Source of the DNA: Acetobacteraceae bacterium
Lineage (GTDB): Bacteria; Pseudomonadota; Alphaproteobacteria; Acetobacterales; Acetobacteraceae
Length of the DNA: 64,000 nt
Reading direction: 5' to 3'
NCBI GenBank assembly: GCA_025352375.1
Contig: JANXTL010000026.1
Location: 1 to 64,000, forward strand
Numbering within the stretch: position 1 is the stretch's first letter; each line of letters begins with the position of its first letter. Of the stretch, positions 56,143-62,249 are shown piece after piece. Below the pieces are notes generated by a model, which did no database searches, was not told the DNA's origin, and saw nothing but the letters and a program-made list of their open reading frames with translations. The position numbers and the translations under genes are program-made.

Positions 56143-56259
56143 TAGAGCGTGATCGCTTGAGGTTGACTTCAACCTCGGGCGTGAATCAACTTCTCAAACA
56201 AAGGCTTAGACCATGATCCAACGCCGAGATCGCGTGCGACCTCAGGCGATCTCGCTCTA
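56143..56259 (+). repeat. MITE/REP-like palindromic element, copy 4 (hybrid right end)
   Basis: left end as copy 3; right end acctcaggcgatctcgctcta is the inverted repeat of the left end rather than cgatcatggtcta. Confidence 0.94.
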
Positions 56260-56595
56260 GGGCTGGTGTCGCGGGACCCAGTAGGACAACGTGTGGATGG
56301 CCGCGCGGTGTTGCCAGCGGTTCGCTTCGCGGAGTTCGTCGAAGTAGGCCCCAACGCGGTCGTACAGGGACGCAACGCCCCGGCGCGCAGCCACGACCAG
56401 CGGCAGCATCCGGTGGTCCATTGCCCAGACACTGAATTCCACCTCGGTCATGCCAAGGAACGCCGCCAAGGATCGGGTCTCTTTATCGCCGGACTCGTGC
56501 CAGGCCTCGATGGCATCGTGAATTTCGTCGCGGCTTGCCCGCCCCTCGGCATAGAGCTCGATGAACGGTGCGGTCGGGAGTTCGATGTCAGACAC
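56257..56595 (-). CDS. putative antitoxin/immunity partner (112 aa, GTG start) of colicin E3-like toxin
   Basis: MSDIELPTAPFIELYAEGRASRDEIHDAIEAWHESGDKETRSLAAFLGMTEVEFSVWAMDHRMLPLVVAARR; GTGTCTGA overlap with toxin-domain stop. Confidence 0.65.
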   Translation of the reverse strand: MSDIELPTAPFIELYAEGRASRDEIHDAIEAWHESGDKETRSLAAFLGMTEVEFSVWAMDHRMLPLVVAARRGVASLYDRVGAYFDELREANRWQHRAAIHTLSYWVPRHQP

Positions 56596-58659: not shown

Positions 58660-58965
58660 TCATACAAGGTTGATCGCATCCGCCGCGATCCGCGCCCGAA
58701 ACCCCGGCTCGACCGTCGCGAGGTCGACGATGTCCACCTTGTAGGGCAAATCGGACTCCGATAACGCCTCCGCGATCGCCCCGATCGACGCCAATCCGAG
58801 CGGTCGCTCCCATTCCAGCGCCAGATCGAGGTCGGAATAACGCCGCGCCCCCCCATGCGCTCGGGAGCCGAAAACGTAGGCCTTGGCCCCGGCGGGGAGA
58901 TGCTCGCGCAGGATCCTCCGCACGATGGCGGCGTGGTCGTCTTGCAGGTCGAGCATGGCGGTCAC
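58660..58965 (-). CDS. MntA-type minimal nucleotidyltransferase antitoxin (GTG 58965 or ATG 58956)
   Basis: GSRAHGGARRYSDLDL matches GSX10DXD; GTGA overlap with HEPN gene. Confidence 0.9.
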   Translation of the reverse strand: MTAMLDLQDDHAAIVRRILREHLPAGAKAYVFGSRAHGGARRYSDLDLALEWERPLGLASIGAIAEALSESDLPYKVDIVDLATVEPGFRARIAADAINLV

Positions 58966-59402
58966 CCGAGCCGCCGGACCAGCGTGTCCCGCAAATAATC
59001 GGCCTCCGCGAGGAATTCCGGGATCCCCTCGACGACCTCGATTGCGACTTTGGCCGCATAGGTGTGACTGGTGCGGGCCCGCAGGTCGCGGTAATGGCGC
59101 CATTTGGGCCAATCTCCGCGTAACAGGTTTTGCTCGTTCCCCGTGCGGATCAGGTCCTGGAACGGCATCTGGTCGAATTCGTCGGGCGTGGCAGACACCA
59201 TGCGCAGATACCGCCGCAGCATTTTATGGGCGAGTTCGTAGGTAAACTCGAACCGCTGGATCAGGCCGTCGCGGAGTTGTTCGTCCTCCGGTTCGAGACG
59301 ATGGCGTTCATAGCCTTCGCGTAACCGGTCCACAGCACTCGCGAGCGGGCCGACGTCGAGCGATTTGCTCGGTTCACCTGCCAGATGGGGTGATTTTTCC
59401 AC
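58962..59402 (-). CDS. HepT-like HEPN toxin (nucleotidyltransferase substrate-binding, HI0074 family)
   Basis: RARTSHTY matches RX4HXY; adjacent MntA-type gene. Confidence 0.9.
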   Translation of the reverse strand: MEKSPHLAGEPSKSLDVGPLASAVDRLREGYERHRLEPEDEQLRDGLIQRFEFTYELAHKMLRRYLRMVSATPDEFDQMPFQDLIRTGNEQNLLRGDWPKWRHYRDLRARTSHTYAAKVAIEVVEGIPEFLAEADYLRDTLVRRLG

Positions 59403-59405
59403 CGG

Positions 59406-60557
59406 TCATTTCCCCAAATCGACAATAAGGTTTTTTCCAAATTTCAACGCCGTGACGCCGCAAGCCAATTCGATAATAACGGAAATTGAGCGACGACTAT
59501 AATTAGTACCCATCCACAATCCGGATTGCAATCGGATCGCATACTCTTGACAGAAGTCCGGGCGTCCAGGGTACAACTCAGATCGATTGCGTGCTAAATA
59601 GCGCCGGCTTCGCCCGTGCTTTAAGGACATGAAGCGTTCGGCAAATAAGGGGTCGCGTTTGTCGAGCAGATCGAAAAGCTGCCGCAGCACGTCAATGGCC
59701 GTCCTGGATGGATGGAACACTTCGTCCAACCTGAAACCAACGCCGTCGGGGGCCAAAACCGGTTCTGGCTGCTGCGATACGGCCGCTGTCGTGGCGGCAG
59801 GCAACTGAACGGCCGGCGCAATCGCTTCCTGCGCAGGACTTGTCGGCCCGGTCGATCGACCCGGTCGCGGGGGGACGATTTTCAGGGGGCCACGAGCAAC
59901 ATCGCTTTTGAGAAATGCCGAAACCATATCGGGTTCCGGTTTGAATCCGCAGATGCTTTCAACCCTATCCGCGAGAATCTCCAGCAACATCTCGTCCTCT
60001 TCTTCGATCAGCTTGCCCCAGGCCTTTGGCAGCGCGGCGCGCATCTGCCGCTCCCTGGAGACATTCTGGTAATCGTCCCGTGCCGACCGGATCGCTTGCC
60101 CCGTCACGACATCGTCATGCAAGAGATAACGACGCAAACGGAATGCCGATTCCAATATCTCCCGCTCGACAATATCGAGCTTGTAAACGCGTCGTTCGCC
60201 GTAATCGCCCTGTTCGCCAGGAAGGAAGAAGTTCCACTCCCGCCCATCCGTCAGGATCGCCATGGGAACACCGTTATGGAAGGCATATTCGAACAATTGC
60301 CGTTCGGCGCCGTCGCTCTGTCCGATCTGTTTGACCTCGATCAACGCAATCGGCTTGCCGGGGGGATGGCACAGTGCGAAATCGACCCGCTTCCCGCTGA
60401 GCCCGTATTCCGGCCAGACGACCTGTGTGTCGTACGCTGGCCAAGACAACGCATGGAGAAGGCGCAAAACGATACCCTGAGAAACCGCGGCTTCATTGGT
60501 GAACCGCCCCGCGGCAATGCCTTCGCGGATACTTGAGATCTCTTGCTCGATGCCCAT
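59406..60557 (-). CDS. stand-alone type I restriction HSDR_N-like PD-(D/E)XK protein
   Basis: KRVDFALCHPPGKPIALIEVKQIGQSDGAERQLFEYAFHNGVPMAILTDGREWNFF. Confidence 0.87.
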   Translation of the reverse strand: MGIEQEISSIREGIAAGRFTNEAAVSQGIVLRLLHALSWPAYDTQVVWPEYGLSGKRVDFALCHPPGKPIALIEVKQIGQSDGAERQLFEYAFHNGVPMAILTDGREWNFFLPGEQGDYGERRVYKLDIVEREILESAFRLRRYLLHDDVVTGQAIRSARDDYQNVSRERQMRAALPKAWGKLIEEEDEMLLEILADRVESICGFKPEPDMVSAFLKSDVARGPLKIVPPRPGRSTGPTSPAQEAIAPAVQLPAATTAAVSQQPEPVLAPDGVGFRLDEVFHPSRTAIDVLRQLFDLLDKRDPLFAERFMSLKHGRSRRYLARNRSELYPGRPDFCQEYAIRLQSGLWMGTNYSRRSISVIIELACGVTALKFGKNLIVDLGK

Positions 60558-60811
60558 CAGGCCGCCACCGGATGCCGCACTGTCATATCGCCTCGCCCGG
60601 CGAGCAAACCCTCGACCGAGATATCCTCGTTCAGCCTCTCCCAGTGCAAGCCCTGCCCGGTCGCGCCAATCCGGCATTGTTCGCGCTCTGTCGGTGCCGC
60701 GTGAAGCAAACGGGGAAACCACGCGAGGGGAACCCCGACCGTGCGGCCGTCGTTCAGTTCGACCCACATGGTCACATCGTCGAGCCGGACGGACTTAGCC
60801 GAAATGTTCAT
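60557..60811 (-). CDS. DUF2442 domain-containing protein
   Basis: MNISAKSVRLDDVTMWVELNDGRTVGVPLAWFPRLLHAAPTEREQCRIGATGQGLHWERLNEDISVEGLLAG. Confidence 0.92.
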   Translation of the reverse strand: MNISAKSVRLDDVTMWVELNDGRTVGVPLAWFPRLLHAAPTEREQCRIGATGQGLHWERLNEDISVEGLLAGRGDMTVRHPVAA

Positions 60812-61038
60812 GCCATGCCTCCATGATCGCTTGCAGCCGCGCCGTGACGATTCGGACCAGGTCCGCCTGCTCCCGCCGCGTGAAACCAGAACTTTCTGCT
60901 ATCCGGACATCCAGATTCAACCAAAACTTCGCTTCCGCGTCACCGCGGCCCGCATGAACGTGGATCGGTTCGCACGGGTTGCCCTCGTTGGAGAAGAAGA
61001 ATGAAGCGGATGCCGTCATGGCGAAAGACGACTGGCAT
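60795..61038 (-). pseudogene. DUF4160 protein with 1-nt frameshift near codon 13
   Basis: MPVVFRHDGIRF then shifted frame FFFSNEGNPCEPIHVHAGRGDAEAKFWLNLDVRIAESSGFTRREQADLVRIVTARLQAIMEAWHEHFG; removing one base at 61002 restores frame. Confidence 0.82.
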
Positions 61039-61106: not shown

Positions 61107-62249
61107 CTACTCCGCCGCCAATTTCTCCGCGTCCGCCGCCGCTTTGAACAACGCCGCCTTCGCCTCCACCAACGCCACGATGTGCTCCACCATGGAAGCC
61201 CCGTCGATCGTGTGGTCGGTCTTACCGGCGTTGTAGATCATGTGCCGGCCGTTGCCGCCGCCGGTGACGCCGATGTCGGTCATCAGCGCCTCCCCCGGTC
61301 CGTTCACCACACAGCCGATGATCGACAGGGTCAGCGGGGTTTCGATGTGCGCCAGCCGGTCTTCCAAAGTGCGCACCGTCTCGATCACGTTGTAGCCCTG
61401 CCGCGCGCAAGACGGGCAGGAGATGACCTTGACCCCGCGATGCCGGATGCCGAGCGTCTTGAGCATGTCCCAGCCGACCCGGACCTCTTCTTCGGGTTCG
61501 TCGGACAGCGACACCCGAATTGTGTCGCCGATGCCGGCCCACAACAGGGAACCCAGCCCGATCGAGGACTTCACGGTGCCCATGCGGCGCCCGCCGGCCT
61601 CGGTAATGCCGATATGCAACGGGTGGTCGCACACTTCGGCGAGCTGCTGATAGGCGGCAACCGCCAAAAAGACGTCGGATGCCTTCACGCTGATCTTGAA
61701 GTCGTGGAAGTCGTGCTGTTGCAGGATGTTGGCGTGGTACAGCGCGCTCTCGACCAGGGCTTCCGGGTTGGGTTCGCCGTATTTCTCCAGCAGGTGCTTC
61801 TCCAATGACCCGGCGTTCACCCCGATGCGCATGGAGCAGCCGTAATCCCGAGCGGCCTTGATAACCGCCCGCACGCGATCGTCGGAGCCAATGTTGCCGG
61901 GGTTGATGCGCAGGCAGGCGGCGCCGCTTTGGGCGGCCTCGATGCCGCGCATGTAGTGAAAATGGATGTCCGCGACGATGGGGACGTTCACTTCCTTGAC
62001 GATTTCCTTCAACGCCAAAGCGCTGGGCCGATCCGGGCACGACACGCGCACGATATCCACGCCCGCCAGTTCCGCCCGACGGATCTGGGCGATAGTGCCC
62101 GGAATGTCGGTGGTCAGCGTGTTGGTCATCGTCTGCACGGTAATCGGGGCGCCGTCGCCGACGGGGACCTTCCCAACATAAACGCGGCGCGATTTACGGC
62201 GCTGAATGTCCTGGTAGGGGCGGTAGCTGCTCATTCTGGTACTCCTCAC
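61107..62249 (-). CDS. ispG: flavodoxin-dependent 4-hydroxy-3-methylbut-2-enyl diphosphate synthase
   Basis: [45 protein letters not shown]. Confidence 0.97.

Follow-up and report, generated by a model that had tools for sequence, protein, structure and literature searches.

The question raised by this locus is whether five closely packed genes on the minus strand of a 64,000-nucleotide stretch of Acetobacteraceae DNA (the window) make up a single system, as an earlier note proposed, or a patchwork. The genes were placed correctly by that note between selO and ispG, and all of the overlapping or near-touching boundaries that it described were reproduced. On balance the locus is read here as a patchwork in a genus-specific toxin-antitoxin (TA) hotspot, in which the inserted nuclease is a single-protein, likely type IV-like restriction enzyme; this reading is believed only somewhat more than it is doubted. 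The object of interest is the nuclease family itself, not a joint system. The features were as follows.

61107..62249, minus strand: ispG, a core gene upstream in the same orientation, to which the TA hotspot is anchored
60795..61019, minus strand: DUF4160 (DhiT-type toxin) ORF from an internal ATG (Pfam PF13711, E 1.3e-15; family frame comparison)
60557..60811, minus strand: DUF2442 (DhiA-type antitoxin), intact (PF10387, E 2.7e-22; in relatives, matched behind ispG by HMM and by blastn)
59406..60557, minus strand: stand-alone nuclease, 383 aa (PF04313 HSDR_N, 2.2e-7)
60225..60494, minus strand: PD-(D/E)XK nuclease core, residues 22-111 (D59, E74, K76, Q87, Y91)
59418..59738, minus strand: predicted SeqA-C-like DNA-binding domain, residues 274-380
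58962..59402, minus strand: HepT (HEPN RNase toxin; PF08780, 3.8e-30), conserved behind ispG in the genus
58660..58965, minus strand: MntA (adenylyltransferase antitoxin; PF18765, 4e-12; Polbeta/NTP_transf_2)

Each of the five genes exceeded the curated cut-off of at least one Pfam model. The DUF4160 gene runs 17 nt into DUF2442, whose stop codon in turn has one base in common with the start of the nuclease (TGATG), and the nuclease ends 3 nt before HepT begins. HepT and MntA overlap at GTGA, and in relatives a V-T-R or M-S-E start is found at the same place. The promoter scan, which was uninformative, returned no sigma-70-like site. The conserved frame around these genes is ispG-hisS-prfA; selO and a 112-codon ORF also lie between MntA and hisS.

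Thirty-three genomes of the genus (uncultured Acetobacteraceae) were searched for the ispG locus, which was read wherever it turned up. The ispG-hisS gap in the genus is a TA hotspot, holding the unrelated modules HepT/MntA, DUF4160/DUF2442, ParE/HTH and E3-type cytotoxic. HepT-MntA lay directly or nearly behind ispG in G005, G014, G031, G020, G010 (broken), G006, G007, G025 and G029, and remnants of HepT were present in G015 and G026. The interval between ispG and HepT contained nothing, DUF4160/DUF2442 or a ParE/HTH pair. DUF4160/DUF2442 preceded HepT in G020 (C229), and G029 has DUF2442 with a mere remnant of DUF4160; a ParE/HTH pair preceded HepT in G025, together with DUF2442, and similar HTH ORFs were found in G006 and G007. 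Broken DUF4160 with DUF2442, and no HepT, was present at the locus in G016, and G021 contained DUF4160 alone. The HepT-MntA type VII module would reside in the ispG-hisS-prfA operon, with the DhiTA-type DUF4160-DUF2442 module in front of it and apparently in the process of losing its toxin. The significance of the site is that TA modules build up inside an essential operon, one toxin being repeatedly lost while its antitoxin persists. A ParE-type toxin and an HTH protein occupied the place of DUF4160 in L153 (1921-2537), between ispG and DUF2442-HepT-MntA, and similar HTH ORFs preceded HepT in L238 and L240.

Among the genus loci read, the nuclease was found behind ispG in the window only; DUF2442-HepT-MntA stood behind ispG, with the nuclease absent, in L152, L153 and L154/L254. 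By blastn, the colinearity of G029 with the window runs as far as the DUF2442 stop and resumes near HepT codon 14; in between, G029 has 24 bases and the window 1195 (extra stretch 60556-59361). GC content was lowest of the five genes in the nuclease (0.567), compared with 0.638-0.667 for ispG, DUF2442 and MntA (ispG 0.638). The nuclease gene would have been gained horizontally, landing precisely between the end of DUF2442 and the beginning of HepT; loss from all relatives is less parsimonious than gain. In near relatives the nuclease was detected in 1 of 144 besides the window genome, elsewhere in that genome and with a different C-terminus. The nuclease of congener G027 was 68% identical over the first 233 residues, at another locus and with another C-terminus. 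At L002:376-1524 (the same gene as in L064) the nuclease of a congener shares the N-terminal half, whereas its C-terminus is unrelated and has no domain assignment.

A scan of some 85,000 species returned about 105 relatives of the nuclease, in Proteobacteria, Chloroflexi, Poribacteria, Acidobacteria and further phyla. Eighty of these were kept and, with one locus on a viral contig, gave 81 other loci. Four more members were found in a class sample of 386 genomes and two in a phylum sample of 399 genomes. A plasmid collection gave one weak match and a phage collection none. DUF4160, DUF2442 and PF08780-HepT were not found near the nuclease in any of the 81 other genome or viral loci, so the five-gene operon is regarded as a patchwork. 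Recurrent neighbours of the nuclease were likewise not found at these loci beyond lineage-specific Poribacteria genes and generic ATPase or HTH families. The five-gene order, which the earlier note had asked to be sought across genomes, occurred in none of those examined besides the window genome. The modules occurred independently elsewhere, which covers most of the outcome that the note had named as telling against its proposal of one joint system. Recognising that the five-gene operon is not a conserved new system saves work.

The DUF4160 and DUF2442 families form a TA family, demonstrated by experiment for DhiTA of Dickeya (PMC8198452), and a Thermus plasmid also carries such a pair (PMC12724237). 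The window pair resembles DhiTA in having the toxin gene first, overlapping genes and identical Pfam families, and it differs in a toxin gene whose reading frame is probably interrupted close to the start, the overlapping antitoxin gene being intact. An ATG at 61038 opens the conserved DUF4160 N-terminus (MPVVFRHDGIRF), from 61038 to about 61003, and this frame soon stops; the remainder of the domain is encoded in a different frame, which is open only from 61019. Compared with its family, the gene is probably frameshifted and the toxin gene thus broken, or the window contains a one-base assembly error. The proposal of a small TA-like pair stood at the level of the families, and an intact DUF4160 gene ahead of DUF2442, as annotated, was not recovered. 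In the relatives L154, L168 and L162 DUF4160 was broken at differing positions, and in L155 it was truncated; DUF2442 was mostly intact in relatives. From this pattern the toxin looks to have been lost repeatedly and the antitoxin retained. Programmed frameshifting was considered and rejected because the break falls at different places in different relatives.

HepT and MntA bore out the type VII assignment. HepT is a PF08780 HEPN protein (PF08780 or PF01934 being the families that define the type) with RX4HXY as RARTSHTY (59081-59058), and the adjacent, overlapping MNT gene encodes GSX10DXD (58869-58825), so that both motifs previously claimed are present. By sequence the pair meets the definition of a class I type VII TA system (PF08780/PF01909; PMC7641770). 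MntA scored 48.9 bits against NF047752 (MntA_antitoxin), under the 60-bit cut-off of that model. Unlike known HepT/MntA, the window pair follows a nuclease gene and is embedded in the ispG-hisS operon. HepT would be an mRNA-cleaving RNase silenced by MntA through adenylylation of the RX4HXY tyrosine, and TA activity would be expected in this host.

The nuclease comprises, in order, an HSDR_N PD-(D/E)XK domain, a helical region, a flexible linker and a SeqA-like C-terminal domain. The earlier description as an HSDR_N-like nuclease with no adjoining HsdM or HsdS was sound, and it overlooked the last of these domains. The catalytic D, ExK and QxxxY residues (D59, E74, K76, Q87, Y91) were invariant in 59 of 59 family members aligned, and E22 and E50 nearly so. 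An AlphaFold2 model of the full protein had a mean pLDDT of 89.5, with the flexible linker at about 225-270; Foldseek matched the N-terminal half to HsdR 3h1t (prob 1.00) and DrdV 7lvv. The PD-(D/E)XK fold and QxxxY motif are shared with the N-terminal nuclease of type I HsdR (PF04313) and with type IIG DrdV, from which the window nuclease differs in having no helicase and no HsdM/HsdS, and in being 383 aa with a SeqA-like tail. No HsdM or HsdS was found among the five genes; of the helicase-bearing HsdR, HsdM and HsdS that define type I restriction-modification, only the HSDR_N part is represented. DNA-cutting activity of the protein is predicted. At L080:6001-6984, an HSDR_N nuclease homologue was observed in which an Mrr_N domain replaces the SeqA-like tail. 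Such a swap would be expected of a nuclease domain that can be combined with interchangeable DNA readers.

SeqA is an E. coli protein that reads DNA methylation and regulates replication. The Pfam SeqA model matched 20 of 59 nuclease family members (best E 1.5e-6); it gave no match to the window protein alone, which family profiles do match. SeqA chains headed a profile search of the PDB, with E about 1e-3. Foldseek matched the C-terminal half of the full model to DNA-bound SeqA (3fmt, 1lrr; prob 1.00). The isolated C-terminal domain was modelled with a pLDDT of 93.0 and retrieved the five SeqA chains at ranks 1-5 (prob 0.99-1.00, TM 0.58-0.65); this search of the PDB gave no other credible fold match, all lower entries having prob <= 0.05. 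Since the E-values are modest, the case for SeqA rests on the agreement of three methods, in which both fold and sequence similarity to SeqA-C were found.

The fold is shared with SeqA-C (PF03925, a reader of hemimethylated GATC) in 1lrr (TM 0.65, 2.1 A, 89 columns). The GATC-contacting residues of SeqA are R116, T117, R118, N150 and N152 (PMC6225831), and the window equivalents are R316, S317, R318, N352 and S354, so that R116, R118 and N150 are retained in the nuclease tail. The window has Ser at the N152 position, as have 49 of 59 members; the site recognised and the way it is methylated may therefore depart from hemimethylated GATC. The protein also differs from SeqA in the absence of the N-terminal oligomerisation domain and in the attached nuclease. 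A literature search from which subscription journals were mostly missing, and which is weak evidence of novelty, found no SeqA joined to HSDR_N or a nuclease domain. A one-protein nuclease family combining HSDR_N with a SeqA-C-like domain looks undescribed.

The HsdR-like PD-(D/E)XK domain would cut DNA where the SeqA-related domain binds. Because no methyltransferase or specificity subunit lies beside the nuclease, modification-dependent restriction is the likeliest mode, namely type IV-like cleavage of foreign, adenine-methylated DNA. The protein is most likely a solitary restriction nuclease, possibly modification-dependent. Type IV enzymes such as Mrr likewise combine a nuclease and a DNA reader in one protein, as the Mrr_N homologue illustrates; in the window nuclease, dependence on modification is putative. 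No D12 methylase was found in the host genome and GATC is not depleted in the window, which lends the type IV mode indirect support. An anti-correlation between the nuclease and D12 methylases was sought and was absent (10 of 30 nuclease hosts against 53 of 150 in the phylum), so the type IV mode gains no support from this comparison. If the reading is true, a widespread solitary SeqA-domain nuclease would be a known methylation reader turned to DNA restriction.

Other readings were weighed against restriction of modified DNA. A type II-like nuclease acting on unmodified DNA with a distant cognate methylase, or a replication or repair role as for SeqA, is judged unlikely. SeqA is itself a replication regulator, and HsdM_N was matched by 2 of 124 close nuclease neighbours, and type I/II methylases by a few; against this, nearly all loci lack a methylase adjoining the gene, GATC is not depleted in the window (489 observed, 468 expected), and the patchy distribution is unlike that of a housekeeping protein. 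Selfish addiction, in which the TA pairs keep the locus in place and the nuclease is merely carried along and plays no part in defence, is the least probable account: unrelated TA modules do gather at the ispG-hisS site and the neighbours of the nuclease are not conserved, but its catalytic and DNA-contact positions are strongly conserved across many phyla, which a passenger would not need.

A working composite, in which the nuclease and HepT/MntA (MNT-HEPN) cooperate, for example with the nuclease attacking DNA that enters the cell and HepT as a back-up or guard upon inhibition of the nuclease or operon, is distinctly improbable, although the tight gene overlaps suggest a single transcript. 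An MNT gene lay within 700 nt of the nuclease in 4 of the 81 loci (L015, L051, L059, L066, all in other phyla), a distance picked post hoc after inspection of the data. These were the sole MNT matches in 791 kb of flanks (P about 4e-4 under random placement), and three also had a HEPN gene or domain (PF05168 or PF01934). Both orders occurred: MNT-HEPN-nuclease in L066 and nuclease-MNT-HepT in L059, with MNT and a short fragment in L015. Adjacency is thereby commoner than expected, and this weak association with MNT-HEPN may be more than coincidence. However, 77 of 81 loci had no MNT neighbour, gene order and HEPN family changed each time, and HepT-MntA stood behind ispG with no nuclease in about 10 congeners. 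A further proposal, that the SeqA-domain nuclease targets adenine-methylated, perhaps hemimethylated, foreign DNA and is yoked in a subset of genomes to a cell-arresting MNT-HEPN as a second defence, is a speculation given slightly less credence than the composite.

Several minor observations concern the surroundings of these genes. In L051 (4195-9840; Dehalococcoidia) the MNT-HEPN and nuclease unit is flanked by hemC and a tetrapyrrole methylase/hemD-type gene, another insertion within a core operon, and in L071 the nuclease is just upstream of a similar tetrapyrrole methylase/hemD-type gene. In a class-level relative (L007:2894-9568) ABC-type ATPase-like and HD-like phosphohydrolase ORFs were noted by eye near the nuclease.

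The 112-codon ORF of the window (56257-56595, minus strand) belongs to a family with no Pfam match, and it may encode an immunity protein or antitoxin left without its partner. Further members of the family stand alone or in tandem in the ispG-hisS gap of L153, L152, L240 and L237. In L153 the family members come after colicin E3-type Cytotoxic (PF09000) ORFs, and in L152 an ORF similar by appearance (no domain scan) precedes one member.
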